DNA of 41,853 nucleotides, taken from positions 1 through 41,853 of IMG/VR virus record IMGVR_UViG_3300020421_000050. One strand, 5' to 3'. The position numbers were made by a program, and so were the translations under genes. Each line of letters starts with the position of its first letter. The stretch's first letter is position 1. Shown here one piece after another: positions 157-18,796 of this stretch. The notes beneath the pieces are model-generated. The model was given only the letters and a program-made list of their open reading frames with translations. It was not told where the DNA came from and ran no database searches. The stretch is from a virus.

Positions 157-157
157 A

Positions 158-451
158 ATGAATAATCCTATAGCAAAATTTTATCAATGGCAAGTTAATT
201 CAGGTGCACTAGATGGCTGGACATCTTATCATTTAGCTGCAGGGTTGTTTATTGCAAAAGTTGCTCAGTGGTTAGGATCATCAGATTTCTGGGCTGTCAT
301 GTGGGTTGTTATCATTGGCATTGCATGGGAAATCTTTGAAGTTTATGTTGAGGGTACAGAAGAAACCTACGGCACAAAAGAAAGATGGGCATGGAATACT
401 GGAACGGATTTATTCGTAGAGATAGCAGCAGCATGGTGGATGGTCCTTTAA
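158..451 (+). CDS. Small integral membrane protein, unknown function
   Basis: A 97-residue protein rich in Trp, Ala, Ile and Val. Two or three hydrophobic stretches are visible: roughly residues 25-38, residues 43-60 (FWAVMWVVIIGIAWEIF) and the C-terminal end 84-97 (LFVEIAAAWWMVL). It therefore probably sits in the host inner membrane. The arrangement of His, Gly, Trp-Glu and a polar loop between hydrophobic segments vaguely recalls small VanZ-like membrane proteins, but this is not enough to assign a function. It follows the upstream gene by one base and overlaps the next one, so it belongs to the same plus-strand transcription unit. Confidence 0.65.
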   Translation: MNNPIAKFYQWQVNSGALDGWTSYHLAAGLFIAKVAQWLGSSDFWAVMWVVIIGIAWEIFEVYVEGTEETYGTKERWAWNTGTDLFVEIAAAWWMVL

Positions 452-1290
452 AATCTTATCGACACTTTCGTAAGTATACTGATCCTGAAATCAGAGATGA
501 GCAGGACGAGTATTTTGATAATGATGCTACAAAGCAATCTGCACCTGGTCTTTTTCGTGATAGAGATGATGTAACTTATTATATAAAAGACTCTAGACTA
601 GAACTTCTTGATATTGAAGAGTTAAAGTCTTTGAAAAATTCTGATGTTGCGGAGATTCTAAAACACAACAAAAAAGATATTAGGTTAAAATCAGCTATTA
701 AGTTAGCTAAGCATTATGGTAAAGATTATGAATCTATACTTAAGGCATTTCGCAACAATTACAAACTACCGCCCCCATTAGTTATAAGAGATAAAAACAA
801 TAGCATGTATCTAATGTCAGGAAACACAAGAATGATTCTAGCTGTATCGCTTGGTTTTAATATGCCTGTTAAGATTATAAAATATAAGAAAACACTCCAG
901 ACAGAAAACTTTAAATTAAATAAATCAAAAATGATAGATGTTGCTAAATGGCTAGTAAAACAGCATAAGTTAAGATCAAAAGTTCAAATATCTAGAGACA
1001 AGAATAACAGAGGTAACTATTACTGGGATACTGATACTATAGTAATTTCAAATAATCCTAGTAATATGCTGGATTTTGTAGAAACAGTTTTGCATGAGAT
1101 AGATCATGCTAAGGAGAGAAAGAAGCTTGGAGCAGAAAAATACGAAGTACAATATACGCAAGCTGGTCAAGAAGCTGTTGATAAGGGAAAAGATTTCCAC
1201 GATGACAACCCATTCGAAATACAAGCAGAGAAGTATGCTGAGAAAAATGGTAAAAAATGGCTTAAAAAAATATTGCATTTTTTGAAATAG
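433..1290 (+). CDS. ParB/sulfiredoxin-like domain fused to an HExxH zinc metallopeptidase-like domain
   Basis: The frame opens at 385, but I prefer the ATG at 433 because it overlaps the preceding gene by 19 rather than 67 bases; this gives 285 residues. Residues about 115-145 contain a ParB-like core with S129-G-N-T-R133, the signature of the ParB/Srx nucleotide-binding fold. The C-terminal part has H221-E-I-D-H225, a zinc-binding HExxH motif. About 37 residues later NPFE262 followed by IQAEKYA looks like the third zinc ligand glutamate of gluzincin-type peptidases. Seen: both motif sets. Inferred: a metal-dependent peptidase joined to a nucleotide- or DNA-binding module. The substrate is unknown. 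Anti-host or virion-processing roles are possible, but nothing nearby decides between them. Confidence 0.7.
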   Translation: MVDGPLKSYRHFRKYTDPEIRDEQDEYFDNDATKQSAPGLFRDRDDVTYYIKDSRLELLDIEELKSLKNSDVAEILKHNKKDIRLKSAIKLAKHYGKDYESILKAFRNNYKLPPPLVIRDKNNSMYLMSGNTRMILAVSLGFNMPVKIIKYKKTLQTENFKLNKSKMIDVAKWLVKQHKLRSKVQISRDKNNRGNYYWDTDTIVISNNPSNMLDFVETVLHEIDHAKERKKLGAEKYEVQYTQAGQEAVDKGKDFHDDNPFEIQAEKYAEKNGKKWLKKILHFLK

Positions 1291-1492
1291 CAAGTATATA
1301 TATTATTGTACATGTACAGGTTTTAGTTAAATCTAAAATTAAACTCTTTAAATACTGAGATAAAAGTGTATACTGAGTTTGTTTTTGTAATTTAATTTTA
1401 GCTAATAACTACTAAGCTAAAGCTACTATAAATTACTAATTCTTAATAACTAAAACACTACAAAACAACTAAAACTAAAGGTTTAAAACAAT
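1291..1492. other. Intergenic spacer with a palindrome and possible promoters
   Basis: About 200 AT-rich bases between the metallopeptidase-like gene and the replication/recombination operon. A perfect 12-base palindrome (TGTACATGTACA) lies at 1307-1318. A TATACT at 1369-1374 could be a sigma70-type -10, but its -35 is poor. TATAAATT at 1427-1434 differs in one base from the T4 late -10 consensus TATAAATA. No open frame with a convincing start was seen here. Confidence 0.35.
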
Positions 1493-1849
1493 ATGAAACC
1501 TAGAAGCGCTAAAGCAAAAGGTAAAAGGTTACAAAATAAAGTTACACAGCTATTGCAAGAAAAATATTCTTCTGTATTAGAATCAGGAGACTTTAAGTCT
1601 ACTACTATGGGGGAACATGGTATGGATGTACAGTTATCTCCTTCTGCAAGAAAAGTATTTCCATTTGCAATAGAATGTAAAAATCAAGAGCAGCTAAATA
1701 TCTGGAAGAGTCTAGAACAAGCAGAATCAAACTGTGAAGGTCTGACACCTCTGTTAGTATTTAAGAGAAATAAGACTAAAATATATGCAGCTTTAGAAAT
1801 AAGTGACTTTTTAAATTTATTAGATGGAAATAAAAAAGAGACTAACTAG
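1493..1849 (+). CDS. PD-(D/E)XK-type nuclease, resolvase-like
   Basis: A 118-residue protein with a basic N-terminus (residues 1-20) followed by a restriction-endonuclease-fold core. Asp45 lies in the segment GMDVQL and the E61-C-K63 triplet in the strand FAIECKNQ, together forming the D...ExK catalytic pattern of PD-(D/E)XK nucleases. Its size and layout resemble small Holliday-junction resolvases and related phage nucleases. Cleavage of branched or damaged DNA during recombination-dependent replication is the likely role, but the exact substrate is an inference. The gene heads an operon whose next members overlap: the primase start lies 26 bases inside this gene. Confidence 0.7.
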   Translation: MKPRSAKAKGKRLQNKVTQLLQEKYSSVLESGDFKSTTMGEHGMDVQLSPSARKVFPFAIECKNQEQLNIWKSLEQAESNCEGLTPLLVFKRNKTKIYAALEISDFLNLLDGNKKETN

Positions 1850-2741
1850 TATATTAGATAACGTACTCGGCAAAAGAGGCGTATCAGGTGGTGCTAATGA
1901 AATAGCTTATTGCTGTCCTTTCTGCAATCATCACAAACCAAAACTACAGATAAATGTAGAGACACAACAGTGGCATTGTTGGGTTTGCGATGCTAAAGGT
2001 AAGTCAGTATTTACTTTAGTTAAGAAGCTTAAAGCACCAAAGACTGTATATGAAGAACTATCACAGATTTATAAGAACACAAAGTTCACAAAGTATGAAA
2101 AGCAAAAAGATGCATTTGTAAAATTACCAGAAGAGTACATACCTATGGCATTTCTACAGTCTGATTCTCTTTCGTATCAGCATGCAAAGAACTACTTAGA
2201 AAAAAGAAGCATAACAGAAGAAGACATAATAAAGTACAGCATAGGATACTGTGTAGATGGTGATTATGGAGGAAGGATAATAGTACCTTCTTATGATGCT
2301 AACGGAAACTTAAATTACTTTGTAGCAAGATCATTCTATAACTCACCTCTAAAGTATAAAAATCCACCAGCACCAAAAGATACAGTAATATTTGACCTAT
2401 ACATAAACTGGAATATGCCTGTTGTTTTGTGTGAAGGTGTTTTTGATGCTATGGCAATTAAAAAGAATGCTGTACCACTACTTGGTAAAACAGTACAAGA
2501 TACACTTCTTAAAAAATTAGTTAACAATACAAAAGAAGTTATAGTATGCTTAGATGCAGATGCACAAGATACTATATACAAAGTTACAGAAAAGCTCCTT
2601 AGAAATGGAGTTAAAGTTTCTAGAGTAAATTTAACAGATGGAGATCCTTCAGATTTAGGATTTCAAACAATGAATTTTGCTCTAACAAAAGCAATACCTG
2701 TAAATGAATACGACTTAATAAGGCAAAAAATAAACATATGA
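1824..2741 (+). CDS. 61: DNA primase, T4 gp61-like (CHC2-type zinc finger plus Toprim)
   Basis: A 305-residue primase. The N-terminal zinc finger uses C31-P-F-C34 and C52-W-V-C55, flanking a short beta region (KLQINVETQQWHC), as in bacterial DnaG and T4-type primases. The Toprim catalytic domain is visible as VVLCE204GVFDAMA and CLD244AD246, supplying the acidic metal-binding residues for RNA primer synthesis on the lagging strand. The length is similar to T4 gp61. The gene overlaps the upstream nuclease and its last four bases overlap the start of the Mre11-Rad50 fusion, suggesting translational coupling of replication and recombination genes. The family assignment is strong. The T4 gene number is by analogy. 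Confidence 0.88.
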   Translation: MEIKKRLTSILDNVLGKRGVSGGANEIAYCCPFCNHHKPKLQINVETQQWHCWVCDAKGKSVFTLVKKLKAPKTVYEELSQIYKNTKFTKYEKQKDAFVKLPEEYIPMAFLQSDSLSYQHAKNYLEKRSITEEDIIKYSIGYCVDGDYGGRIIVPSYDANGNLNYFVARSFYNSPLKYKNPPAPKDTVIFDLYINWNMPVVLCEGVFDAMAIKKNAVPLLGKTVQDTLLKKLVNNTKEVIVCLDADAQDTIYKVTEKLLRNGVKVSRVNLTDGDPSDLGFQTMNFALTKAIPVNEYDLIRQKINI

Positions 2742-5700
2742 AACTAAAAACAAAGTTTAGATCACTAAAAAAGATCTATCATATATCTGATATACAGATA
2801 AGAAACTTAAAAAGACATAAAGAATATGAGCAGGTATTTGAGAATCTGTACGATTTTCTCAGAAAAGATCCAGATAATTCTGTAGTCTATATAGGTGGAG
2901 ATATTGCACACAGTAAAACAGATATGTCTCCAGAGCTGGTAGATGAACTTTCTAGACTGTTTAAGAATCTAGCCGATATATGTCCCACATTAATTATCGC
3001 AGGGAATCATGATTGTAATTTGAACAATAGATCTAGGTTAGATGTACTTACTCCTATTGTAGATAACTTAAATCATCCTGATTTGCACTATCTAAATGAA
3101 ACAGGTATTTATTATGCAGGTGATGTGGGATTTGCTGTTTTAGAAGTTAGAGATGATGAAGCAAACTTACCAGATCCTTCTACAATTAATGCAAAAACAA
3201 AAGTACTGTTGTTTCACGGTACTGTTGATAAATCACAAACAGATTTAGGATTTGCATTACCTTCTGCTGTTAAATTAAAAGACTTTGACGGTTATGATAT
3301 CGTGATGTTAGGTGATATTCATAAAATGCAAACAATGCAAGAATATAAAGAAGGAAAAGTAAAGAAGCCAATCGTAAGATATTGTGGATCTTTAGTCCAA
3401 CAAAATCACGGTGAAACATTGCTAGGGCACGGTGTATCTGTATGGGATGTTAAAACTAGAACTTTTGTTCATCAAGAAATACACAATGAATATGGTTACT
3501 ACACAATAGATATTGAAAATGGATTAGTACCAAAAGTAGATGATCTACCAAAGCAGGCAAGATTAAGATTGAGAGTAAAAAATACTTCACCTACTGATCT
3601 TAAAAAAGCTCTCACAATCATAAAACACAGACATAACATTAAAGAAATGTCAATTATAAGAGAAGACAATTACAAAGTAGATGCAGGTAATTCTTCAACA
3701 ATAGACTTTGGCGATGTTTCAGATCCTGATGTACAAAATGGGCTGATAGAGAATTATCTAAAGAACAATACGACAGCTGATGATGATACAATTGAAAAAG
3801 TAAAGAAAATCAATAAAGAATTAAGCAGCTCTATTATAGGTGAAGAAGTTTCTAGAAATATAAATTGGAAACCTACTAGATTTGAATTTTCAAATATGTT
3901 TAGTTACGGCGAAGATAATGTTATAGATTTTAAAAGATGTAACGGAATAGCAGGATTATTTAGTCCAAATGCAAGTGGTAAGTCAAGTATATTAGATGCA
4001 ATAACATTCTGTTTATTTGATAAGTCAACAAGAGCTTATAAAGCAGAAAATGTTATGAATCATGCAAAATCAAATTTTAGCTGTAAATTAGAATTTGATG
4101 TAGGTAATGATAAGTATGTAATTGAAAGAAGAGGAAGAATACAGAATAATAAAGCAGCATCTACTAGAGTTGATGTTGACTTTTATAGAATAGATGATGG
4201 TAAGAAGTTTTCTCTAAATGGTGATCAAAGAGCGTCGACAAATAAAAACATAAGAAAATTAGTTGGTACATATGAAGATTTTATAATGACCAGCTTTTCA
4301 TCTCAAGGCAACTCAGATATGTTTTTAGGTCTTAATCAAACAGAAAAGAAAGAAATACTAGGTAAATTTTTAGGCTTATCTGTTTTTGATCAGCTATATA
4401 AACTTGCTAAAGAAGAGTCTAGCGGACTACAATCGATGCTTAAAAACTTTTTAGATGTAGATTATGACCAGCAAATAAGCGATATTGAAAATGAAATTAA
4501 TTCTGTTGTTGAAGTTATAGAGAAGCTAAATAATTCGTTACAAGAAAAAGAAGATTCTAGAGATGTTTTTAAAGACAAGGTTATTGACTTAGTAAAATTG
4601 ATCAAGCCGATAGATAGCACTTTAAAACCTATAGATGAGTTAGAAAATGATTATTCTAATGCTGATGCTCAATTACAATCATTAACTGCAAGATTAGAAT
4701 CTACAAAAACAAAACTACAGAACAGCAAAAAAGACGAAGAAATATTAAAAAATAGATTACAGTCTGAAAAATATGCAGATATTGATTCTAGAGTAAATGA
4801 ACATGAGCTACTCTCCACACAGAGAGACGATACAAAAATTGAAGTTGATTCTTTGAAAGTAGAAGTAAAAAATAAACTAGATAAGATAGAAAAACTAGGA
4901 AATCTAGAGTATGATAAAGATTGTGACTTTTGTATGAATAATATATTTGTAAAAGATGCTATCAAGACAAAAGAAGATTTAACAAATGATAAGACTAGAG
5001 CTAGTGTTCTGGTGGCAAAACTAAAAACACTTGAAAATAAAATACAAATAAATAATGATGTTTTAGAAATAAACAGAGAATTTAAGAGTTTAAATCTAGA
5101 GTTGAATAATACAATAAACAATATAACATCATACGATAGAAGAATTAGTGAGATAGAAGATTCTTATAAGACTGTTAAAACTTTAAAAAGAACAGTAAAG
5201 AGTGAAATTAAAAGAAGTCAATCATATCAAAAAGACATAGACTTTAATTCTGAGCTGCAACAAAAAATAGATGATTCAAAAAACTCTGAGTCAATAGTCA
5301 ATACAGAGATAAAAGCAATCAACAACGACATACAACAATATGTTGGTAAGAAATCTGCATTAGAAGCTAAAAAAGAAGAGATAATGCAGGTAATAAATAA
5401 AGTAACAGACTTAGAACAAAAATATGAAGCATACAAATATTATCTGATGGCAGTTGATAAAAATGGTGTAAGTTATGATTTAATTTCACAAGTTCTTATA
5501 AATGTAGAGACAGAAGTTAATGACATACTTGCACAAATAGTAGACTTTCAAATTATATTTGAGATGGATGGTAAAAACATTAATAATTATATTGCTTATG
5601 ACGATGACAAATCTTGGTCATTAGAAATGGCATCTGGAATGGAAAAATTTATTTCGACATTGGCAATAAGAATTGCTCTTACAAATATATCAAATCTACC

Positions 5701-5902
5701 TAGACCGAATTTTATTGCAATCGATGAAGGATGGGGAACAATGGATAGTGATAATCTAAATTCACTATACCAACTATTTCAGTATTTAAAAAATATATTC
5801 CAGTTCTCATTAATTATATCACATATAGATACAATGAGAGATTTTACTGATATTCTACTTGAAATAAAACAAGAAGAAGGCTTAAGTAAAATAGTATTTT
5901 AG
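2738..5902 (+). CDS. Single-chain Mre11-Rad50 recombination nuclease (gp47-gp46 fusion)
   Basis: One uninterrupted 1054-residue frame combines two proteins that are normally separate. Residues 1 to about 340 are a metallophosphoesterase (T4 gp47/Mre11/SbcD type): D18-I-Q20, GGD55IAH58, GN90H91D92, H160 and GD193IH195. Residues about 385-1054 are an SMC-type ATPase (gp46/Rad50/SbcC): Walker A SPNASGK415SS, a long charged coiled coil, zinc hook C729-D-F-C732 at its apex, signature MASGME (964-969), Walker B IAID996E997 and H-loop His1029. The complex resects DNA ends for recombination-dependent replication and helps degrade host DNA. Odd points: the fusion itself, and Gln20 and Asp193 at positions that are usually metal-binding or catalytic histidines. 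Confidence 0.9.
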   Translation: MKLKTKFRSLKKIYHISDIQIRNLKRHKEYEQVFENLYDFLRKDPDNSVVYIGGDIAHSKTDMSPELVDELSRLFKNLADICPTLIIAGNHDCNLNNRSRLDVLTPIVDNLNHPDLHYLNETGIYYAGDVGFAVLEVRDDEANLPDPSTINAKTKVLLFHGTVDKSQTDLGFALPSAVKLKDFDGYDIVMLGDIHKMQTMQEYKEGKVKKPIVRYCGSLVQQNHGETLLGHGVSVWDVKTRTFVHQEIHNEYGYYTIDIENGLVPKVDDLPKQARLRLRVKNTSPTDLKKALTIIKHRHNIKEMSIIREDNYKVDAGNSSTIDFGDVSDPDVQNGLIENYLKNNTTADDDTIEKVKKINKELSSSIIGEEVSRNINWKPTRFEFSNMFSYGEDNVIDFKRCNGIAGLFSPNASGKSSILDAITFCLFDKSTRAYKAENVMNHAKSNFSCKLEFDVGNDKYVIERRGRIQNNKAASTRVDVDFYRIDDGKKFSLNGDQRASTNKNIRKLVGTYEDFIMTSFSSQGNSDMFLGLNQTEKKEILGKFLGLSVFDQLYKLAKEESSGLQSMLKNFLDVDYDQQISDIENEINSVVEVIEKLNNSLQEKEDSRDVFKDKVIDLVKLIKPIDSTLKPIDELENDYSNADAQLQSLTARLESTKTKLQNSKKDEEILKNRLQSEKYADIDSRVNEHELLSTQRDDTKIEVDSLKVEVKNKLDKIEKLGNLEYDKDCDFCMNNIFVKDAIKTKEDLTNDKTRASVLVAKLKTLENKIQINNDVLEINREFKSLNLELNNTINNITSYDRRISEIEDSYKTVKTLKRTVKSEIKRSQSYQKDIDFNSELQQKIDDSKNSESIVNTEIKAINNDIQQYVGKKSALEAKKEEIMQVINKVTDLEQKYEAYKYYLMAVDKNGVSYDLISQVLINVETEVNDILAQIVDFQIIFEMDGKNINNYIAYDDDKSWSLEMASGMEKFISTLAIRIALTNISNLPRPNFIAIDEGWGTMDSDNLNSLYQLFQYLKNIFQFSLIISHIDTMRDFTDILLEIKQEEGLSKIVF

Positions 5903-6190: not shown

Positions 6191-9100
6191 ATGTCTAAAA
6201 TCCAAAAAACAGCATTTTTACAAAACTTACAAGATATAGATGCATTTGAAAATGAAGAAGGAATAACTTCTAAATATTTCAATATTACTGATATACCTTT
6301 AGAGCTACCGATGGGAAAGTCTTCGATGCTCATAATGGGGTCGAAGTTTTTAAAGAATGATGTTGTTTTAAAATTAGAATTAACTGACAGTCTTGGAAAT
6401 CCAGTTTATTTAGAGCCTGTCTACGATTATGAAGAAAGTGGCGGAGTAAGAGTAGGTATAGAAGTTTACAAAAACACAGCAGCAGGATCTGCAACATTAA
6501 CAATTTTAGGTGAATTAGATCCAGCAGAATTTGATGGTGTCATACCTCCAGAATTTCAAGGAATATACAATGTAAAATATACTAGACCACTTACTATAAA
6601 CAAAACAATAGCAAATGATAGACCAATAAGGTTCTATAAAAAGCCAGAAGTAAATGTTACTGAAATAATAAAAGGACAAGTATCATTAACATCAACATCT
6701 ACTGGATCAAATGTTCAGAATGTAGGTTTTATAGAAGGATTTCCAGTACCTAATACAGAAGGAAATCAATTTACAATAGATGGTGATAATTTTGGCGAAG
6801 TTCAGTCTTATAATGACCAGGTTTATGGTTTTAGCCCTATAGGTAATTATGAATCTTATGATACATCAGACCCAAGATATACTTTTAAAATAGGAAATGC
6901 AGACTTTTCATCTTCTATGGTAGGTGGAACATTAACAATTTCACAACCAAATGCTATTACACCATTTCAAACATCAAGCAATACAGTAGTACCTCCTTAT
7001 TCTTCTAGAATAACAAAAGTAATAAATAAAAAGACTATTGAAGTTCAAAAACCTTTTGGTGTTTATGATTCTGGAAGTGGATTTTATAGAATTGCAGGGA
7101 TAGGATCAGGTTCTTATCAGATAAACTGGCCAAAAGAACATGAGTATGATACTAGCAGTATAAATTTTAAATCATTTGCTGATGTAAGGCTTAAGAAATT
7201 AAGAACTTTTTCTGGAGACATTAATAGAGTAGCAGCTTATATTAAAAACAATGGTCCATTTAGTAACTGGCAAAAAGTTATTGATACACCCGTAGAATCT
7301 CCAGAGCTACTATTAGATCCTACATCAATGACAGGAACATCAAGAATAGGTGTTTTTAGCTCTGACTCTGTAATAAACACTTATTGGACTGCAACAGGAG
7401 GACAATTTGGAACAGAGACTTCAGCAACAGTTCAAACATTCTCAGATAATGAGTATTTATCAGATTCTGTATTTGTATCTGCATCAGCAGCATCTATGCT
7501 TGATGATGATAGTAATGAGTGGATAAAATTACAGTTAAAATCAAACTATTCTATGAACTTCATAGAAGATACAGAATACAGAATAAAAGCAAAACTTTTC
7601 TGTGACAATACAAATGGTCTACAAAATTCTGTCAAAGCTGTATTTCATATGTCAGGATCTGCTTTTGGTATGTCACCATCTTTATCAGACTCAAATTATG
7701 GTAGAGCAATAGCAAAAGTTCAATTTGATAACATCGCAAATAAAACAGACCAGCAAGATTTAGAGGCAACATTTGTACCAGACTCTTCTGGCAACGCAAT
7801 ACTTCAAGTAAGATTTACAGGTGGACATTGGCACATGTCACAAGTATCTATAAAGCCAAATTCAGATACAAATTTTTCTCCTGAATTTATAAGACTTATT
7901 GCACCTGTACCACCACTACAAACAAGACCAGATAATTTAGATTTTGCATTTGAATTTTATGACATAAACAATAACAAAGCAAAAACTGTTTTAACCACAA
8001 TACCTGATAATCCAAACGGCGTAGAGTTTGCAGGTGAGAACATGAATATTCTCGGTGATGATAATATGATAGGAGGATCTGTATTTGTAGGTGGTGATGC
8101 AATAGGTGCAGGAATACAGTTTGGTGGTGTAAACTCAACATTACCAGAAACAGGAGAATCAGCAGCAGAAGGATCAGGATTTATAAGATCAGTAAAATAT
8201 CAAGGATTTACATCTGCAAGCTTAAGCACAGATAATACAGGTTTTATGATTTATAGTGGTTCTGTTTTACCAGACTCAGGTGATAATTACTCAGGTGTTG
8301 GTTTAGAATTAGTTGGTGAAAGTGGAAGCCTTAGGTTTGGTACAAAGCCTTCTAGGTTTGAAGTAATAGCTGATGCATTTTTTGTTGGAAGTGATAACAC
8401 ACAGTTCATTTCTGGTTCAGGAGGTATTATAGAAATAAGCTCATCAGCATTTCACTTATCATCTTCAGGTGATGTAGTAATATCTGGATCCGTAACTGCT
8501 GTAGAAGGCAACATAGCTGGATGGAAAATAGTTGATAATAAATTAAGTGGTAGTAATGCAACATTAGACGCATTTGGATCTGCACTTTATAAATCAGACG
8601 AAGGACCAGATACAAATCCAAATGATGGCTACTATATAGACTTCACACCTTCTTCAAATAATCCTTTCTTTGTAAGATTTGGACAAAATTTTGCTGTATC
8701 TTCATCAGGAGTTTTAATTGCAAGTGGAGCATTAATCGAAGGACAGTTAACTGCATCTACTGGTAAAATCGCAGATTGGAATATTGGCTCTAATACAATA
8801 AGCAAAGCAACAAATAATAAATTTACAGGTCTATCATCTGCAGGTGATACTAGATTCTTTGCTGGTGCATCATCTTTAACTAATAGTGGAAGTGCTCCGT
8901 TCAATGTAAAGTCAGACGGATCAATAACAGCATCAAATTATAGATTTGACGGTGATGGTTTAATTACAGGTTCTGTTACAGTTGGTGAAAGTGTTACTAT
9001 ACTAGGTGCAATATCTGCTAATACGATCAATACGCCAGCTGCAGGCCCTTTTAAAGCTTCAATAACAAATACAGGATTTGCAAGATTTGTATCAGCTTCT

Positions 9101-12100
9101 ATTGGAGGCTGGAATGTAGATGAAGATGCTATATTTAGCGGAGACAAAGTTATAGATGGAAGTTATGCTACATCTGGAAGTATGACAATAACAGGAAGTG
9201 GTGGAATACACGCAAATCAGTTTATAATATCAGCATCTGGTGAAGCATTTTTTAAGGGTGAATTAGATAATACAGCAAAATTTGGTGGTGGTGCTGGTGG
9301 TGTTAGGTTTAATGATTTCTTTGAAACTGAAACAATAGATGGAACACCAAGAATAGTACAAAAACCAACAGCAGTATTAAAAAGTGCAACAGGACAAATT
9401 TTATCTGCGAATGACTTAAGTGGTAGTTATGGTGAAGCTAATGTATCTGCATCATTTTCAATAAGTGCATCTGGAGTTTCAATAGAACAAGCAGAAGTAT
9501 CAACACAAAAAGCACAACAATCAAGTCAATTTGCACAGTCTTCTGCAGGATCTGCTACACTATCAGCAGCATCAGCATCAGTAGCTAGCCAAAAAGCTCA
9601 AGATGCTAATTCTTCTGCACAGCAATCTGCAACTGGCGCTTCACAGGCACAAGCTGGAGCATCGACAGCTCAACAAGGTGCAATATCATCTGCAGGATCT
9701 GCTACAGTTTCTGCTGCATCTGCTTCAGCAGCAGATCAATCTGCTCAAGCTTCTACTCAAGCTAGGAATGCAGCAAGAATAGCATCAGGGTCTGCAGAAG
9801 TAGCTTCACAGACATCACAAGCTGGTGCAACAACAGCACAACAAGGTGCACAATCATCTGCAGTATCTGCAACACTATCAGCAGCATCGGCATCTGCAGC
9901 TTCTGCATCATCAGCTCAAGCTGGTCAAGCTAGATCTCAATCACAAACTGCAGCTTCACAAGCTGGTACATCAGCACAGCAATCAAATCAATTTAGACAA
10001 GGCTCATTAGCAGCAGCAACTGGATCTTTATCTTCTAGTTTTGCATCAAGAGATTCTGCTTCTTTTTCAGAAACAAAAGCACAACAATCAAATCAGTTTG
10101 CACAATCTTCTGCAACATCAGCAACAACATCAGAGGCTTCTGCACAATCTTCTAATCAGAGTGCGCAGACTGCTAATCAAAAAGCACAACAAGCATCATC
10201 ATCTGAAGGTGTTGCATCTACTGGTGCACAACAAGCAGCAGCTTCTGCTACAACATCAGAGGCATCTGCACAAAGCTCAAATCAAGCTGCTCAGTCTTCT
10301 AATCAAAGTGCTCAAGGTGCAAATACATCAGCACAGGCTTCTAACCAAAGTGCTCAATCAGCAGCAACTGGTTCTTCACAAGCACAAGCTGGTGCAACTT
10401 CAGCTCAGCAAGGTGCATCGCAAGCTCAGCAAGGAGCTTCGGTTTCACAGCAAGGTGCACAATCAGCAGCAAGTTCTGCTACAACATCAGAGGCTTCAGC
10501 ACAATCATCTGCTGCATCAGCAACTGAAGCAGATGCTTCTGCATCATTAGCAACACAAAGAGCACAGTCTGCTAGTACAAGTGCACAACAATCTGCAACA
10601 GGTGCATCACAATCTCAAGCTGGAGCAACATCAGCTCAGCAAGGAGCTTCGGTTTCACAACAAGGCGCACAATCATCTGCGACTTCTGCTCAATCATCTG
10701 CTGTATCAGCAACTGTATCAGATGCTTCGGCATCAGCAGCTGCACAATCTGCGCAAAGTTCAAATCAAAGTGCTCAGTCTTCTGCAACAGGAGCTTCACA
10801 ATCTCAAGCAGGTGCTACATCAGCACAACAAGGTGCACAATCTTCAGCAACATCAGCAACATCTGCAGAAGGATCTGCACAGACAGCAAATCAAAAATCT
10901 CAAGATGCTAATTCAAGTGCACAACAGTCAGCTGCAGGAGCATCGACAGCTCAACAAGGAGCAATATCATCTGCAGGATCTGCGACATCTGCGGCTGGAT
11001 CAGCAACAGAAGCTGATGCTTCGGCATCATTGGCAACGCAAAGAGCTCAGGCTGCAGACACTAGCGCACAACAATCTGCAACAGGAGCTTCACAATCTCA
11101 AGCAGGTGCTACATCAGCACAACAAGGAGCAGGTGTAGCACAACAAGGTGCATCAACATCTCAGCAAGGAGCACAATCTTCGGCAGCATCAGCAACATCA
11201 GCTGAAGGATCTGCACAAAGTTCAAATCAGTCAGCTCAAGGAGCAGCTGGATCTGCTAATACAGCACAACAAGGTGCACAAACATCACAAGCTGGAGCTT
11301 CGACAGCACAACAAGGTGCATCAACATCTCAGCAAGGAGCATCAACTGCTCAACAAGGTGCACAATCTTCAGCAGCATCAGCAACATCAGCAGCCGGATC
11401 AGCAACAGAAGCTGATGCTTCGGCATCATTGGCAACGCAAAGAGCACAGTCTGCTAGTACAAGCGCACAACAATCTGCAACAGGAGCTTCACAAGCTCAA
11501 GCTGGTGCTACGACATCACAACAAGGGGCACAAACATCTCAAGCTGGTGCATCAACTGCACAACAAGGAGCAGGTGTAGCACAACAAGGAGCAGGTGTAG
11601 CACAACAAGGTGCATCAACATCTCAGCAAGGTGCACAATCCTCAGCAGCTTCCGCTACAACATCTGAGGCATCTGCGCAAAGTTCAAATCAGTCAGCTCA
11701 AGGAGCAAATACTTCAGCACAGTCATCAGCAGGATCAGCAGATACAGCAAATCAAAAAGCTCAAGACGCGTCTAGTTCTGCTCAATCATCTGCAGGATCA
11801 GCTACATCAGCAGCTGGTTCAGCAACAGAAGCAGAAGCAAGTGCATCAGTTGCAAATCAAAAAGCACAAATATCACAACAAGGAGCATCAACTTCACAAC
11901 AAGGAGCTCAATCTTCAGCTGCTTCAGCAACATCAGCTGAAGGATCTTCGCAGACAGCAAATCAAAAAGCTCAAGCTGCAAATACTTCAGCACAGTCTTC
12001 TGCAGGATCTGCGACAACTGCTAATCAAAAAGCACAACAAGCAAGTACATCAGCAACAGGTGCATCACAGTCAGCACAATCTTCAGCAGCTTCAGCAACT

Positions 12101-15100
12101 GTAGCAGATGCTTCGGCATCAGCAGCTGCACAATCTGCACAAAGTTCAAATCAGTCTGCACAAACATCTCAAGCTGGTGCATCAACTGCACAACAAGGAG
12201 CTTCAACAGCTCAATCAGGTGCATCAACAGCACAACAAGGTGCACAATCCGCAGCAAGTTCTGCAACATCTGCAGAAGGATCTTCACAGAGTGCAAGTCA
12301 ATCAGCTCAAGGAGCAGCAGGATCAGCAACAAATGCAAATACATCTGCTCAAGGTGCAAATCAATCAGCACAAGGAGCAGCTGGTTCAGCAACATCTGCA
12401 GAAGGATCTGCACAGTCATCAGCAGGATCAGCAACAACTTCACAGCAAGGGGCTTCAACTTCTCAAAGTGGTGCTTCTACTGCTCAACAAGGTGCAAGTA
12501 CTGCACAGCAAGGTGCACAATCCGCTGCAAGCTCTGCTACAACATCTGAAGCTTCAGCACAGAGCTCTAATCAAGCTGCACAATCATCACAAGCTGGAGC
12601 TGCATCATCTCAACAAGGAGCACAAAATTCAGCAGGATCTGCAACAGAATCTGCACAATCCGCAGCACAGTCTGCAACAAAAGCATCACAGGCTGCATTA
12701 CAAGCTCAAGGTGCCGCAGCATCAGCATCAGCAGCAGAAGATGCTGCACAGCAAGCAGCAACAAAAGCTCAACAAGCATCAACAGCTGCACAGCAAGCTT
12801 CAACAAAAGCATCTGATGCAGAAACTTCTGCACAGCAAGCAGCAGCTAAAGCTCAAAATGCAGCAAGCTCTGCACAGACAGCAGCAGTTTCAGCAACAGC
12901 TGCAGCAGCATCAGCATCGTTAGCTTCTACATCATCTCAACAAGCTTCTAATGTTGCAACACAAGCTTCACAAATTGCATCACAAGCAGCAGCATCTGCA
13001 ACCGCAGCAGCTCAAGAAGCAGCAGCTTCATTGGCATCTGCACAACAATCAGGTGGTTCTGCTCAGGCATCAAGTCAAAGTGCACAGAGTTCTAACCAAA
13101 GTGCACAGGGCGCAGCAGGTTCTGCTACAACTGCAAATCAAAAAGCTCAATCTGCAAATACAAGTGCTCAAAGCTCTAGCCAAAGTGCACAATCATCAGC
13201 AGGTTCTGCTACAACTGCAAATCAAAAAGCTCAACAAGCTTCTAGCTCTGCACAAACTTCAGCTGTTTCAGCAACATCAGCAGCCGGATCTGCAACAGAA
13301 GCAGAAGCTTCTGCATCTGTAGCTAACCAAAAAGCACAAATAGCTCAACAAGGAGCTTCAACTTCTCAAAGTGGTGCTTCAACAGCACAACAAGGTGCAA
13401 GCACTGCACAGAGTGGAGCAACATCAGCACAACAAGGAGCTTCATCTGCAAATACTTCTGCACAATCATCAGCAGGATCGGCTACATCTGCTAATCAAAA
13501 AGCACAACAAGCTTCTAGCTCTGCTCAATCATCTGCGACCTCAGCAACTTCAGCTGAAGGATCTGCACAAACAGCAAACCAAAAATCTCAAGATGCATCA
13601 TCATCTGCACAAACAGCTAATCAAAAAGCACAGCAAGCTTCTGCATCTTCTACATCTGCAAATACTTCTGCACAAACATCAGCAGTATCAGCAACTGTAT
13701 CAGCTGCATCGGCTTCAGTAGCAAATCAAAAAGCGCAAGTAGCTCAGCAAGGAGCAAGTACTGCTCAAAGTGGTGCTTCGACTGCTCAAAGCGGTGCAAC
13801 ATCTGCTCAGCAAGGTGCTTCACAAGCTCAATCAGGGGCACAATCAGCAGCAAGCTCAGCAACATCAGCTGAGGGATCTTCACAGACAGCAAATCAAAAA
13901 GCTCAAGCTGCAAATTCATCTGCACAATCATCAGCAGGATCTGCTACAACTGCAAATCAAAAAGCACAGGACTCAAATGCTTCAGCACAATCATCAGCAA
14001 CAGGTGCTTCACAAGCACAAGCTGGTGCTACATCTGCACAACAAGGAGCAAGTACTGCACAGAGTGGAGCATCAACTGCTCAGACAGGTGCATCACAGGC
14101 AAGTACTTCTGCACAAACATCAGCAGCGTCAGCTACAATTTCAGCAGCATCGGCATCAGTAGCAAATCAAAAAGCACAGTCTGCTAATCAATCAGCACAA
14201 GGTGCAGCTGGTTCAGCAACAAGTGCAAATTCATCTGCACAATCATCAGCAGGATCTGCTACAACTTCACAACAAGGAGCAAGTACTGCACAGAGTGGAG
14301 CTTCAACAGCTCAAAGTGGTGCAACAACAGCACAGCAAGGAGCAAGCTCTGCTCAAAGCGGTGCACAATCTGCAGCAAGTTCTGCGACATCAGCTGAAGG
14401 ATCAGCACAGAGTTCTAATTCTTCTGCACAACAATCAGCAGCAGGAGCAACATCAGCTCAGCAAGGTGCTTCAACTGCACAAAGTGGTGCTTCAACAGCT
14501 CAAAGTGGTGCAACAACAGCACAGCAAGGAGCAAGTACTTCACAGAGTGGAGCATCTACATCACAGACAGGTGCATCACAAGCAAGTACTTCTGCACAAT
14601 CATCTGCAACATCAGCAACAACATCAGAGGCTTCTGCACAAGGATCAGCTGCATCAGCTTCTGCATCTACTCAGTCAGCTCAATCGTCTCAGCAAGGTGC
14701 ACAAAATTCAGCAGCATCAGCAGCAGAATCTGCAGCTTCTGCAAATGCTTCAGCACAATCTGCCAATACTTCGGCACAATCAGCAGCAGGCTCTGCAACA
14801 ACAGCACAACAAGCTGCATCATCTGCAACATCAGCTTCACAAAACGCAAGTGCAGCGGCAACATCAGCTCAGCAAGCAGCAGATGAAGCAACCGATGCAA
14901 GTCAAGAAGCAACAACAGCATCACAAAAAGCTTCACAAGCATCAGCAGATGCAACAACAGCATCACAAAAAGCTTCACAAGCATCATCAAATGCAACTGC
15001 AGCTTCACAGTCTGCAGCAAACTCTGCAACATCAGCTCAGCAAGCTGCAGATAAAGCAACCGATGCAAGTCAAGATGCAAACACAGCTTCACAAAAAGCT

Positions 15101-18100
15101 CAACAAGCTGCATCAAATGCAACTGCAGCATCACAATCTGCAAATACTTCTGCACAATCAGCAGCTGGATCAGCAACTAGTGCAAATCAATCAGCAACAA
15201 AAGCATCACAGGCATCAACATCCGCAGCAGCATCTGCAGCATCAGCATCAGCAGCTTCACAAAAAGCACAACAAGCTTCTAGTTCAGCAACATCTGCAGC
15301 AGCATCAGCTACAATTTCAGCTGCGTCAGCATCGGCAGCATCAACTATAGCAACACAGGCAGCAGCATCTGCAACCGCAGCAGCTCAAGAAGCAGCGGCA
15401 TCATTGGCATCTGCACAATCTTCAGATGGATCTGCACAAAACTCTAATTCAAGTGCACAAAATGCAAATACTTCAGAAACTAATGCAAATAGCTCAGCAC
15501 AGAATTCAAACTCTTCAGCTCAGACATCAGCAGCATCAGCTACTATTTCAGCTGCATCGGCATCTGCAGCAAAATCAAGCGCACAAGGTGCAGTGAATGC
15601 TGAATCACAAGCTTCTACATTGAGAGGACAAGCATCTACATTGCAAGGACAAGCATCTACAATTAGATCACAAGCAGTATCAATATCTTCTTCTACAAAC
15701 TTAAGAGCAGAAGGAATTCAAGACATACTATCAGGCTCTTTAGGAAACAACACTTCAGTAGTTAATCTACCTAATATTCTAGCAACAGGATCAGGAGTAA
15801 TAGCAGGCTGGACAATTGATGCGAACTCTATAACTTCTGCTGGAACTACAAGCAATAAAATAGTATTAAGAGGTGCTCTAGGGTCAGGAACAGGTAATGA
15901 CTCCGGTACTATCGGTGATGTAATTGCGATGTCATCTTTTTCAGAGGCTAGATTTGGTGCAGCTGGTGTTACAATTGGTGCTATAAAATCATCTAACGAT
16001 GCTGGTATCATTGATATGAAGAGAAGATGGAACTTCTTAACTAGTTGTTTTATTGGTGGCACAAAAGTTTTAATGTCTGATGGCAGCGAAAAAAATATTG
16101 AAGATATAACTGAAGGAGAAACTGTACTAGCATATATTTCAGGGTCAATAGTACAAGAAAAAGTAACAATTACTGACATGATAATGCATGGTGAAACAGT
16201 AAAAATAGAACTAGAAAATATTGATATAACACCAACACCAGCTCACCCAATATTTGTAAAAGATAAAGGATGGAGCTCTGTTTGGCCTGAAGAAACATTA
16301 GCTAATGCTAGTTACGGCCTAGAAGAATGTGCTCAGATAGAAGTAGGAGATAAGTTATTACAATACGATAATAATGAGATAGTTGAGGTAGAAGTATTAA
16401 AGATAAATGATATTCAAGAAAAAGCAGTTAAAACTTATTCGTTAGGTGTAGAAAATGCACATAATCACTTTGCTAATAATATTTTAGTTCACAATGCGCA
16501 AGCTTATCAAGCAACTGCTTGGGGAAGTGGTACAACCCAAACATTCCCAGTCATTCAAGGAGATGCAGAATTTGATGGTTCTACAGTAAGTATAGAGTCT
16601 GGTACAGTTCGTCATGTAAGTGCAGGTGTTTATGGAAGAAATGTTGGAAGTGCAAATACAGGTAACTTAGATCACGTGGGAATCTTAGGATATGCTACAG
16701 GTTCTAATGGCGCTGTTAATAATCAACAATATCTATCAGGTTTATTTCTTGGTTCTCCTGTTGCTATTCAATCAGCACTATGGTTAGGCGGTGGAAGACC
16801 ACATAGTAGTTTAGTTGGAGCCACAAATGGTTTAAATTTAGGTTATGGCACAGTAATATCAAATTTGTCTGGTTTTAATCCAGACACCGACAATACTGCA
16901 AAAACTACTGCTGCTTATGGTATAAACTTTGGTGGTGATGTATCTTTATATAGGTCAGGTGCTAATGTATTATCACTAGGAGATAATGATAAGCTTTCTC
17001 TTGGTGGTACCAGTTCCACAGGCGGTGAAATTAGAATAGGTACAACAACATCATTAGGTTATATTGGTATTAGAAATAATACAGGAGCAGCTGCTACTGG
17101 ACTCTTCGGAGGAACACAAGGGTATATCGCTATGATGGACGGAAATGCCCTTACTATGGAATTATTATCTATAACTAATGAATATGGTGCTATAAAACTT
17201 TATAATAACGCAAATGTTAAAATTACAATAGACGCAAACGCAGGTATAACTCTAGCATCAGATGTAAGAATAAATTTTGATTCTACTGACACATACATTT
17301 ATGCAAATAGTCAAAGTACAGAAGACTTAGTTCTAGGTGCTGATGATGATATTATATTGGAGCCAGACGGTGAAGTACGAATAACAACAGACTTATACAT
17401 TACAGATGACTTATTTGTAGATGATTTTGCCAGAATAGACGCTCTAAGAGTTGGTAACACATCAACAGATCCTGGTGATGGAAATCTATATGTTGAAGAT
17501 TACATATATGCACCAGGTTTAGGAACTGGAGCAGACAATTCAGTAGTAATATTAGACTCAGACAATAGACTAAAAACAGATGAAATAGACGCTCGTGTTT
17601 GGGGAACTACTTTATTAGATGGTTCAAATGGAAGTAATAATGAACTAGCAATATTCACAGATTCAAACTCTGTAGAGGGTGTTAGTACGCTAACATATGA
17701 TAATCAAACGCTTAATATTGGAAATGGTGACTCTTTACCAAGACTTTTTATTGATTCAACTAGTAGTGGTAATAATTGGACTGCTCAAGGTGCTTGGGCA
17801 TCAATAGGAGAATCTCCTGGTGGCGCTGCTTCTTTAGATTTAACATATACTGGAGATGGTTACGGTAGAATAGGTATGGGTACTGTTACTAATGGTATTC
17901 CAGAATACGGTGAAATAAAGTTTTACTATGCTGGTGATAGAATAGAAATACCAAGTGCTGATGTTGAAATACATAATGCTCTTTCTATAGGACACACAGG
18001 AACACCAGCAGGTACATTAGATGTTCGTAGTTCATCTGATACTTATATGGGTATTTTTAGAAATACTACCTCGACCGATGGTGACAATTCATACATACTA

Positions 18101-18796
18101 AACTTATGGCACTCACAAGAAGATAGTATTAGTAGCACAGATTTTGATACCAGCGAACACTGGATTCAATTTTCAGATAATAGTGGAACATTTTTAGGAG
18201 AAATTATAGATGAAGTAACCTACTCCACATTTACAGGAGGTCACGTATCACAAATTATAAGTGGCTCAGCTATAGACAATGAAAATGAGATGAAAGCTTG
18301 GAAACCAGGTATGATTCTATCAGCAACAGGAAACTTAAATGTAACTGGAAGTACTATAGGATTAGCTTGGCCGGAAGTTTCTATTACAACAACTGAAAAA
18401 GATAAAGCTGTAATGGGTGTCTACAAAGATATTAAGCCCGGTAGTGGTTCAAATTGGGTAGGTGTGTATAATAACAAAAATGCAGTAAGTAGTTCTACAG
18501 GAGACTGGGGCATAGGACACAATATGCATGGTTTAGATCCTATAAAACCAGCATTGGACTATAATGCGGTTGGTGAAGGAATGGTCTTGGTAACAGATAC
18601 TAATGGTAATATAGAAACAGGTGACTATATTTGTTCATCGGCTAGAACTGGTCACGGTGAAAAACAGGACGATGATTTACTACATAACTATACAGTAGCA
18701 AAAGCTACACAACCAATGGATTTCTCAACTGTATCAGATGATTCTGATTTAGGATACAAATCAGTACTAATTGCATGTACTTATCACTGTGGATAA
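6191..18796 (+). CDS. Giant tail-fibre protein with heptad-repeat stalk and Hint domain
   Basis: A 4201-residue protein encoded by 12.6 kb. Residues 1 to about 1090 are Gly/Ser/Asn-rich beta modules typical of phage fibres, including three copies of a GxIxGWxI unit at about 773, 858 and 969. Residues about 1100-3166 are Ala/Ser/Gln heptads of the pattern (S/G/K)-A-x-x-(A/S)-x-x, similar in style to the lambda side tail fibre Stf. A fourth GW unit (3202) follows, then a Hint domain (3286-3435) and a beta-rich C-terminal part. The last 80 or so residues (GEGMVLVTD...DYICSS...QDDDLLHNYTVAKAT) resemble C-terminal chaperone/self-cleavage regions of phage fibres. It probably forms a trimeric adsorption fibre. 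There is no clear Shine-Dalgarno sequence before the start. Confidence 0.88.
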   Translation: MSKIQKTAFLQNLQDIDAFENEEGITSKYFNITDIPLELPMGKSSMLIMGSKFLKNDVVLKLELTDSLGNPVYLEPVYDYEESGGVRVGIEVYKNTAAGSATLTILGELDPAEFDGVIPPEFQGIYNVKYTRPLTINKTIANDRPIRFYKKPEVNVTEIIKGQVSLTSTSTGSNVQNVGFIEGFPVPNTEGNQFTIDGDNFGEVQSYNDQVYGFSPIGNYESYDTSDPRYTFKIGNADFSSSMVGGTLTISQPNAITPFQTSSNTVVPPYSSRITKVINKKTIEVQKPFGVYDSGSGFYRIAGIGSGSYQINWPKEHEYDTSSINFKSFADVRLKKLRTFSGDINRVAAYIKNNGPFSNWQKVIDTPVESPELLLDPTSMTGTSRIGVFSSDSVINTYWTATGGQFGTETSATVQTFSDNEYLSDSVFVSASAASMLDDDSNEWIKLQLKSNYSMNFIEDTEYRIKAKLFCDNTNGLQNSVKAVFHMSGSAFGMSPSLSDSNYGRAIAKVQFDNIANKTDQQDLEATFVPDSSGNAILQVRFTGGHWHMSQVSIKPNSDTNFSPEFIRLIAPVPPLQTRPDNLDFAFEFYDINNNKAKTVLTTIPDNPNGVEFAGENMNILGDDNMIGGSVFVGGDAIGAGIQFGGVNSTLPETGESAAEGSGFIRSVKYQGFTSASLSTDNTGFMIYSGSVLPDSGDNYSGVGLELVGESGSLRFGTKPSRFEVIADAFFVGSDNTQFISGSGGIIEISSSAFHLSSSGDVVISGSVTAVEGNIAGWKIVDNKLSGSNATLDAFGSALYKSDEGPDTNPNDGYYIDFTPSSNNPFFVRFGQNFAVSSSGVLIASGALIEGQLTASTGKIADWNIGSNTISKATNNKFTGLSSAGDTRFFAGASSLTNSGSAPFNVKSDGSITASNYRFDGDGLITGSVTVGESVTILGAISANTINTPAAGPFKASITNTGFARFVSASIGGWNVDEDAIFSGDKVIDGSYATSGSMTITGSGGIHANQFIISASGEAFFKGELDNTAKFGGGAGGVRFNDFFETETIDGTPRIVQKPTAVLKSATGQILSANDLSGSYGEANVSASFSISASGVSIEQAEVSTQKAQQSSQFAQSSAGSATLSAASASVASQKAQDANSSAQQSATGASQAQAGASTAQQGAISSAGSATVSAASASAADQSAQASTQARNAARIASGSAEVASQTSQAGATTAQQGAQSSAVSATLSAASASAASASSAQAGQARSQSQTAASQAGTSAQQSNQFRQGSLAAATGSLSSSFASRDSASFSETKAQQSNQFAQSSATSATTSEASAQSSNQSAQTANQKAQQASSSEGVASTGAQQAAASATTSEASAQSSNQAAQSSNQSAQGANTSAQASNQSAQSAATGSSQAQAGATSAQQGASQAQQGASVSQQGAQSAASSATTSEASAQSSAASATEADASASLATQRAQSASTSAQQSATGASQSQAGATSAQQGASVSQQGAQSSATSAQSSAVSATVSDASASAAAQSAQSSNQSAQSSATGASQSQAGATSAQQGAQSSATSATSAEGSAQTANQKSQDANSSAQQSAAGASTAQQGAISSAGSATSAAGSATEADASASLATQRAQAADTSAQQSATGASQSQAGATSAQQGAGVAQQGASTSQQGAQSSAASATSAEGSAQSSNQSAQGAAGSANTAQQGAQTSQAGASTAQQGASTSQQGASTAQQGAQSSAASATSAAGSATEADASASLATQRAQSASTSAQQSATGASQAQAGATTSQQGAQTSQAGASTAQQGAGVAQQGAGVAQQGASTSQQGAQSSAASATTSEASAQSSNQSAQGANTSAQSSAGSADTANQKAQDASSSAQSSAGSATSAAGSATEAEASASVANQKAQISQQGASTSQQGAQSSAASATSAEGSSQTANQKAQAANTSAQSSAGSATTANQKAQQASTSATGASQSAQSSAASATVADASASAAAQSAQSSNQSAQTSQAGASTAQQGASTAQSGASTAQQGAQSAASSATSAEGSSQSASQSAQGAAGSATNANTSAQGANQSAQGAAGSATSAEGSAQSSAGSATTSQQGASTSQSGASTAQQGASTAQQGAQSAASSATTSEASAQSSNQAAQSSQAGAASSQQGAQNSAGSATESAQSAAQSATKASQAALQAQGAAASASAAEDAAQQAATKAQQASTAAQQASTKASDAETSAQQAAAKAQNAASSAQTAAVSATAAAASASLASTSSQQASNVATQASQIASQAAASATAAAQEAAASLASAQQSGGSAQASSQSAQSSNQSAQGAAGSATTANQKAQSANTSAQSSSQSAQSSAGSATTANQKAQQASSSAQTSAVSATSAAGSATEAEASASVANQKAQIAQQGASTSQSGASTAQQGASTAQSGATSAQQGASSANTSAQSSAGSATSANQKAQQASSSAQSSATSATSAEGSAQTANQKSQDASSSAQTANQKAQQASASSTSANTSAQTSAVSATVSAASASVANQKAQVAQQGASTAQSGASTAQSGATSAQQGASQAQSGAQSAASSATSAEGSSQTANQKAQAANSSAQSSAGSATTANQKAQDSNASAQSSATGASQAQAGATSAQQGASTAQSGASTAQTGASQASTSAQTSAASATISAASASVANQKAQSANQSAQGAAGSATSANSSAQSSAGSATTSQQGASTAQSGASTAQSGATTAQQGASSAQSGAQSAASSATSAEGSAQSSNSSAQQSAAGATSAQQGASTAQSGASTAQSGATTAQQGASTSQSGASTSQTGASQASTSAQSSATSATTSEASAQGSAASASASTQSAQSSQQGAQNSAASAAESAASANASAQSANTSAQSAAGSATTAQQAASSATSASQNASAAATSAQQAADEATDASQEATTASQKASQASADATTASQKASQASSNATAASQSAANSATSAQQAADKATDASQDANTASQKAQQAASNATAASQSANTSAQSAAGSATSANQSATKASQASTSAAASAASASAASQKAQQASSSATSAAASATISAASASAASTIATQAAASATAAAQEAAASLASAQSSDGSAQNSNSSAQNANTSETNANSSAQNSNSSAQTSAASATISAASASAAKSSAQGAVNAESQASTLRGQASTLQGQASTIRSQAVSISSSTNLRAEGIQDILSGSLGNNTSVVNLPNILATGSGVIAGWTIDANSITSAGTTSNKIVLRGALGSGTGNDSGTIGDVIAMSSFSEARFGAAGVTIGAIKSSNDAGIIDMKRRWNFLTSCFIGGTKVLMSDGSEKNIEDITEGETVLAYISGSIVQEKVTITDMIMHGETVKIELENIDITPTPAHPIFVKDKGWSSVWPEETLANASYGLEECAQIEVGDKLLQYDNNEIVEVEVLKINDIQEKAVKTYSLGVENAHNHFANNILVHNAQAYQATAWGSGTTQTFPVIQGDAEFDGSTVSIESGTVRHVSAGVYGRNVGSANTGNLDHVGILGYATGSNGAVNNQQYLSGLFLGSPVAIQSALWLGGGRPHSSLVGATNGLNLGYGTVISNLSGFNPDTDNTAKTTAAYGINFGGDVSLYRSGANVLSLGDNDKLSLGGTSSTGGEIRIGTTTSLGYIGIRNNTGAAATGLFGGTQGYIAMMDGNALTMELLSITNEYGAIKLYNNANVKITIDANAGITLASDVRINFDSTDTYIYANSQSTEDLVLGADDDIILEPDGEVRITTDLYITDDLFVDDFARIDALRVGNTSTDPGDGNLYVEDYIYAPGLGTGADNSVVILDSDNRLKTDEIDARVWGTTLLDGSNGSNNELAIFTDSNSVEGVSTLTYDNQTLNIGNGDSLPRLFIDSTSSGNNWTAQGAWASIGESPGGAASLDLTYTGDGYGRIGMGTVTNGIPEYGEIKFYYAGDRIEIPSADVEIHNALSIGHTGTPAGTLDVRSSSDTYMGIFRNTTSTDGDNSYILNLWHSQEDSISSTDFDTSEHWIQFSDNSGTFLGEIIDEVTYSTFTGGHVSQIISGSAIDNENEMKAWKPGMILSATGNLNVTGSTIGLAWPEVSITTTEKDKAVMGVYKDIKPGSGSNWVGVYNNKNAVSSSTGDWGIGHNMHGLDPIKPALDYNAVGEGMVLVTDTNGNIETGDYICSSARTGHGEKQDDDLLHNYTVAKATQPMDFSTVSDDSDLGYKSVLIACTYHCG
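8507..9132 (+). repeat. GxIxGW repeat units 1-3 in the giant fibre
   Basis: Three related protein units begin at residues about 773 (GNIAGWKIVDNKLSG), 858 (GKIADWNIGSNTIS) and 969 (ASIGGWNVDEDAIFSG), each followed by Ser/Gly/Thr-rich beta sequence. A fourth copy (GVIAGWTIDANSITSAG, residue 3202, base 15794) sits on the other side of the heptad stalk. The spacing between copies 1 and 2 is about 85 residues and between 2 and 3 about 110. Confidence 0.7.
9490..15690 (+). repeat. Heptad-repeat array (about 295 heptads, 21-bp unit) in the giant fibre
   Basis: About 2,060 residues can be cut into consecutive seven-residue words without losing phase. Examples are SAQSSNQ, SAQGAAG, SATTANQ, KAQQASS, GASTAQQ, GATSAQQ, SATSAEG, SATEADA, SASLATQ, RAQSAST and GASQAQA. 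Position 2 is nearly always Ala and position 5 nearly always Ala or Ser, giving the 3-4 spacing of coiled-coil a/d core positions with very small side chains (Alacoil-like). Some stretches (about residues 1195-1215 and 1260-1300) vary in composition but keep the phase. Codons for the same word differ between copies (GCA/GCT, TCA/TCT/AGT/AGC), so the DNA is less repetitive than the protein. Confidence 0.92.
16046..16495 (+). other. Hint domain (intein-like, BIL type A-like) embedded in the giant fibre
   Basis: Residues 3286-3435 form a 150-residue Hint module. Block A starts with Cys3286 (CFIGGTKVLMSDGSEKNIED), block B carries TPAHPIF with the TxxH histidine, block F is TYSLGVENAHNHFANN, and block G ends ILVHN with the His-Asn pair. 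No homing endonuclease domain is present. The residue after the terminal Asn is Ala (GCG at 16496), not the Cys/Ser/Thr needed for classical splicing. This points to a bacterial-intein-like domain that may splice by an alternative route or only cleave. If it cleaves at both ends, pieces of 3285 and 766 residues would result. Confidence 0.85.

Follow-up and report, generated by a model that had tools for sequence, protein, structure and literature searches.

The window analysed here, a stretch of 41,853 nt that corresponds to the IMG/VR virus record IMGVR_UViG_3300020421_000050, contains a tail-fibre open reading frame (ORF) in which 296 consecutive seven-residue units, all with Ala or Ser at their fifth position and almost all with Ala or Ser at their second, follow one another in a single register. 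We consider, with a probability of roughly three in four, that this array forms the shaft of a tail fibre made of three identical chains, folded as a parallel coiled coil with an Ala/Ser core and about 280–310 nm long. An earlier note on this DNA had proposed a fibre stalk at positions 9490–15690; the coordinates were correct within about 20 nt and, as far as the sequence and monomer predictions go, the interpretation is supported.

Two landmarks bound the array, SGVSIEQA at residue 1094 (nt 9470) and SSSTNLRA at residue 3166 (nt 15686); the 2072 residues between them are exactly 296 heptads, close to the approximately 295 heptads and 2060 residues previously estimated. Position 2 is occupied by Ala in 93% of the heptads and by Ser in 4%, with Arg, Glu or Gln in nine of them, while position 5 is Ala (59%) or Ser (41%) in 296 of 296. 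Both rules are thus followed by 287 heptads, and the nine exceptions (at residues 1192, 1248, 1269, 1339 and 3096, and among the last heptads) are in-phase substitutions at position 2 that conserve position 5, so the anticipated absence of phase breaks holds along the entire array. The longest perfect run comprises 250 heptads (residues 1345–3094), compared to a maximum of 13 in 1000 composition-preserving shuffles; likewise, the Fourier power of Ala at a period of 3.500 was 63, versus a shuffle maximum of 2.6. There was no Ala power above noise at 11/3, 18/5 (3.6) or 15/4, which rules out a hendecad or stutter-containing coil.

Residue usage is also restricted at other positions of the heptad. 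Thr, Val, Ile, Leu and Phe are absent from positions 2 and 5 (291 heptads); elsewhere in the heptad, Thr occurs frequently (positions 3, 4 and 7), and large hydrophobic residues appear above all at position 4. Position 1 is mostly small (Ser 52%, Gly 26%) or Lys (10%), and holds 29 of the 30 lysines of the array. The 2072 residues include no Pro, Cys, Met, Tyr, Trp or His, whereas the remaining 2129 residues of the ORF contain 69 Pro. The final heptads switch to Leu or Ile at position 1 (LRGQAST LQGQAST IRSQAVS), in what looks like a cap. Words starting with Gly (GASTAQQ type) occur in blocks of up to eight heptads, with Ser/Lys words between blocks. Only 99 residues are charged and opposite-charge pairs at lag 5 number 4, versus 2.5 expected; a register lock by interhelical g-e′ salt bridges is therefore unsupported. 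At lags 7, 9 and 11, residues of opposite charge do pair more often than expected.

An array that is very hydrophilic, with few charges, rich in Ser, Thr, Gln and Gly and without a large hydrophobic core, could also be a soluble disordered or elastic tether, that is, an Ala/Ser/Gln/Gly polymer instead of a coiled coil. A tether would need no register, however, whereas here the 296 heptads are in phase, positions 2 and 5 accept only Ala or Ser save for nine exceptions at position 2, and Pro is absent; additionally, AlphaFold2 returns helix for the array, and a prophage stalk of this type, though shorter, forms a trimeric helix. We thus regard a tether as decidedly improbable.

In a sister contig, L004, whose fibre has 3819 aa, the two landmarks enclose exactly 268 heptads, and stalk length therefore differs between these relatives by a multiple of seven residues. 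The two proteins are 94% identical over the N-terminal 1090 residues, with around 86–88% nucleotide identity downstream. The array from L004 is made of 156 distinct words that are largely different from the 170 of the window. When both arrays were aligned residue by residue with no heptad constraint, 14 of the 16 gaps were multiples of seven and the remaining two (3 and 11 residues) total 14 and flank a misaligned block of five residues; indels were of 7, 14, 21, 35, 70, and 91 residues. Amino acid identity was not evenly distributed along the heptad, with a peak at position 2 (92%) and a minimum at position 7 (65%). Core serines (position 5) also displayed a strong codon bias: the ratio TCN:AGY is 120:0 in the window, versus 329:71 elsewhere in the array (p = 3e-9), and 121:2 in L004 (p = 3e-8). 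This bias is expected if Ala and Ser swap by single G/T changes, because TCN is one step from GCN, with no intermediate residue being tolerated. The array of a third contig, L291, is cut by the contig edge; it draws on the same family of words, and its Ala residues are in phase with those of the window when counted from the distal landmark. The existence in L004 of its own array of 268 heptads, with different words and whole-heptad indels, suggests that the register is under selection.

The same comparison bears on whether misassembly of a shorter repeat region could have generated the array, as could be feared for an environmental contig with a repetitive region and because two other contigs, L291 and L300, stop within the array. 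Nevertheless, no exact repeat exceeds 54 nt in the window or 71 nt in L004, 170 of the 296 heptads are distinct, the frame is intact, and L004 is an independent contig. From these sequences, assembly error appears very unlikely as the source of the array and we rejected it; the possibility of an artefact, contemplated in the earlier note, was not borne out.

An AlphaFold2 model of residues 1771–1980 (210 aa, single sequence, monomer), a slice that includes Gly words, consists of one helix from 2 to 209 with a mean pLDDT of 87, in line with the helical stalk foreseen and showing neither disorder nor beta structure. A second model, of a 397-residue slice spanning the N-terminal boundary and with L004 as second sequence, shows beta structure followed by a helix from residue 1101, coinciding with the onset of the heptads. 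A PDB search with array slices returned nothing useful.

The only irregular stretch of the array is a conserved Phe/Arg node (QQSNQFRQG...SFASRDSASFSETKAQQSNQF), around 150–210 residues into the stalk, which contains all but one of the five Phe found in the array. Conservation is 76% from residue 1261 on, versus 38% in the heptads just before. Phase is kept through the node, making it a candidate hinge or clamp instead of a register break; it may act as a hinge, a clamp or an attachment point. Consequently, of the continuous helical stalk initially envisaged, the unbroken register stands, whereas the helix itself may be interrupted at this one conserved node. This leads to a reading in which the fibre is helical but segmented, hinged at the Phe/Arg node and possibly also at the Gly-rich blocks, or folded back along the tail, and with a reach well below 300 nm. 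The helix breaks modelled by AlphaFold2 at the node, the step in conservation around residue 1261, the presence of Gly at position 1 in 26% of heptads, with as many as eight such words in a row, and the kinks of T4 long fibres (PMC3004832) all fit segmentation; conversely, neither the node nor any of the Gly blocks disturbs the phase, and the 210-aa slice with Gly words is modelled as one helix. On balance, we consider a segmented fibre unlikely.

Relatives of the fibre inform on the number of chains. Peptidase_S74 was found at the C-terminus of three of the four members of the N-terminal family tested (L014, L017, and L053), and also ends the L291 protein (57 bits), which carries both the array and the common distal domain and whose end resembles gp37 of phage RB16 (28% over 281 aa). 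At the same locus (positions 1–3321 of that contig), L326 contains instead a collagen Gly-X-Y stalk (161 successive triplets; PF01391, 1.5e-60), with lysozyme, nucleotidyltransferase and terminase genes downstream as in the window and a distal segment common to both. In turn, L001–L003 have an N-terminus 68% identical to that from the window and other, apparently beta, repeats in place of the stalk. Collagen cannot form without three chains, and S74 chaperones work on trimeric proteins; by analogy with these relatives, the stalk is most likely a parallel homotrimer. These same features agree with its identification as a fibre stalk in the earlier note. Since relatives hold Ala/Ser heptads, collagen or beta-like repeats at one locus, stalk type is, judging from the contigs compared, exchanged here as a module. 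Also in L326, three small ORFs (3667–5867) located between the collagen-stalk fibre and the lysozyme gene look laminin-G/concanavalin-like by eye, and may encode fibre-tip or decoration proteins.

Several observations weigh against an Ala/Ser-core trimeric shaft. The C-terminus of the window's own fibre ORF has no Pfam match to Peptidase_S74. AlphaFold2 in monomer mode favours helix for Ala-rich sequences, and it was run without a shuffled control; moreover, the 397-residue model has a pLDDT of 58 and its helix is broken at residues 1241–1247 and 1273–1290 before resuming. Mean helix propensity of the array is 0.37 kcal/mol per residue, compared to 0.31 for the lambda Stf segment, a moderate value due to the Ser, Thr, Gln and Gly residues. 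Lastly, the gap test with L004 is partly circular, since alignments of periodic sequences lean to gaps that are multiples of the period; the landmark counts are free of this bias.

If fully helical, the stalk would measure 308 nm (2072 residues × 0.1485 nm), very near the 310 nm or so of the earlier note and, as that figure, obtained by arithmetic and not by measurement; scaling from the measured prophage stalk considered below yields an estimate from sequence of around 286 nm. In the fibre that we propose, three parallel alpha-helical chains would wind into a single left-handed heptad coiled coil whose core consists of small residues (Ala/Ser), forming a thin, mostly neutral polar rod that would join the proximal N-terminal part to a C-terminal receptor-binding tip. 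The rod would keep the tip far from the baseplate, so that receptors could be reached at a distance or beyond surface layers. Shaft length would shift only in steps of a whole heptad, gained or lost, because an indel of another size would put the three chains out of register. Only tentatively, and with rather more doubt than confidence, do we extend this proposal to its strongest form: a single uninterrupted, stutter-free parallel coil of nearly 300 heptads with a purely Ala/Ser core, measuring some 300 nm (double the T4 long fibre) and tuned by whole-heptad expansion, which would make it a natural protein rod with a small-residue core far beyond characterised phage fibre coils and, in one lineage, with an autocleaving Hint domain near the tip.

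Table 1. Features of the tail-fibre ORF in the window.
Feature	Position (nt)	Strand	Basis or remark
Whole tail-fibre ORF, 4201 aa	6191–18796	+	Single open frame; syntenic fibre ORF in L001–L004
N-terminal part, residues 1–1092	6191–9466	+	Residues 1–595 are an anchor-like region common to at least 154 viral contigs (related-locus search, alignment)
Stalk, 296 Ala/Ser heptads in single register, residues 1093–3165 (2072 residues between landmarks)	9467–15685	+	Landmark count, shuffles, Fourier
Conserved Phe/Arg node, residues 1241–1303	9911–10099	+	Phase kept; AlphaFold2 helix breaks at 1241–1247 and 1273–1290
250 successive heptads with Ala/Ser at positions 2 and 5	10223–15472	+	Heptad parse
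Start of distal domain (SSSTNLRA...)	15686–16045	+	Common to L004, L291 and L300
Hint/bacterial-intein-like domain, residues 3286–3435	16046–16495	+	Pfam AXH 46 bits, Intein_splicing 32.5 bits; PDB 2lwy, 6tmm
Conserved C-terminal tip	18044–18796	+	Matches L004 again from nt 18044 onwards (88% nucleotide identity), also beyond the gene

The window encodes a T4-type portal, major head protein and terminase, together with a gp15-type sheath stabiliser; on these genes, the source phage is T4-like and contractile-tailed. The closest terminase relatives are from Microcystis phage Mel-JY01 (53%) and Flavobacterium immuto phages (51%). Primase and SbcC-like genes lie 5′ of the fibre ORF (Table 1), and a glycosyl-hydrolase-108 lysozyme, a nucleotidyltransferase-like gene and the terminase lie 3′; the succession of primase, AAA/SbcC-like gene and a fibre-like match recurs in Mel-JY01. 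Long helical tail proteins are usually tape measures, with about 0.15 nm per residue, and the protein could then set a tail of around 300 nm; yet its gene sits between primase/SbcC and lysozyme, outside the head-tail block, and its family ends in fibre chaperones and swaps the stalk for collagen or beta-like repeats, so we give this function virtually no credence. The N-terminal part of the fibre did not match any Pfam or PHROG family, nor did a 16-member N-terminal profile match the PDB.

The distal part of the protein includes a Hint domain that matches PDB 2lwy (E = 1.7e-6) and, with 21.3 bits, falls just below the cut-off for TIGR01445. It displays the block A Cys (CFIGGT), a TxxH-type motif (TPAHPIF), and a C-terminal His-Asn (VHN) followed by Ala and so without a +1 nucleophile, as in A-type bacterial-intein-like (BIL) domains. 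The domain is absent from the fibres of L004, L291, and L300, and a search of viral contigs found no relatives; its nearest matches in named phages are Vibrio phage proteins, mostly annotated as DNA helicase. BIL domains of the A type cut at their Asn although no nucleophile comes after it (PMC7765530), and by analogy the Hint domain might cut off or process the distal part of the fibre.

Elsewhere in the window, a large ORF (37755–41853, + strand) that leaves the contig contains tandem repeats of 177 and 189 nt (LTFADGTSGAQG-type) and matches PHROG 34255 and 36982, both of unknown function. Another ORF (29084–30151, + strand), rich in Glu, Met and Asp and with 15-nt repeats, shows no family match; its position immediately 5′ of the major head protein gene suggests a scaffold or core protein.

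The window stalk is an extreme of a known type and, as such, tests what holds an Ala/Ser-core coiled coil together: with a hydrophobic core nearly absent, stability would need length, cooperativity and tight helix packing. The arrays from the window, L004, and L291 form a natural series to examine how register survives length drift. Likewise, because relatives exchange coiled-coil, collagen and beta-like repeat shafts at one locus, the shaft appears to behave as a replaceable spacer, with a conserved anchor on one side and a variable tip on the other, and its predicted reach of about 0.3 micrometres bears on receptor finding by environmental phages.

Pattern scans covered 2.9 million viral contigs, and arrays of 16–28 heptads were common among the matches listed. 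The same two-position Ala/Ser rule was found in hundreds of other environmental phage contigs, although their stalks are mostly built of A/S/T/N words and that from the window of Q/G words. Sampled arrays (n = 283) had a median of 33 and a maximum of 67 heptads, the window array being more than four times the longest. A complete scan (19 heptads, AT-ending codons) retrieved 43 stretches, with only the L004 contig of the window's size; the window array is thus the longest among AT-rich arrays and a sample of the rest. In a scan of genome contigs, the sole match (L085, Comamonadaceae) turned out to be without an array, and tblastn of the array against named phages, in which BLAST masks low complexity, gave no match.

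Among characterised fibres, the lambda Stf shaft is also made of Ala/Ser heptads in a single register and is shorter, as had been noted previously, with a longest perfect run of 11 and around 31 heptads in total; lambda is, however, a siphophage, and the domains flanking its shaft have no detectable homology to the window. The T4 long tail fibre (gp34–gp37), of 144 nm (PMC3004832), is likewise the long fibre of a T4-like phage, but is assembled from several proteins instead of one chain, and the shaft predicted here would be twice as long. Honeybee silk shares the Ala-rich a/d core, small g and e residues and a small superhelical radius, and differs in being an antiparallel heterotetramer of 24 heptads from an unrelated protein (PMC12284834). 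Another close parallel is PCoil, the Ala/Ser coiled-coil stalk of the E. coli prophage collagen-like fibre proteins EPclA/EPclB, a trimeric helix that measured 16 nm for around 116 residues (PMC3368898). Therefore, the Ala/Ser core is unusual, as the earlier note pointed out, yet with experimental precedent in phage fibres. PCoil has a loose periodicity, whereas that of the 2072-residue window stalk is strict, and its X positions are often charged, in contrast to the mostly neutral ones (Gln, Ser, Thr, Gly) of the window. Besides, the window protein lacks the PfN, Pf2 and PfC domains that flank the stalk in the EPcl/lambda Stf family: Phage_tail_N, Phage_fiber_2 and Phage_fiber_C had no Pfam match in the whole ORF, its N-terminal part or array slices. 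The stalk type is then already known, whereas its length, around eighteen times that of the one laboratory-studied shaft of its type, and its strictness are new.

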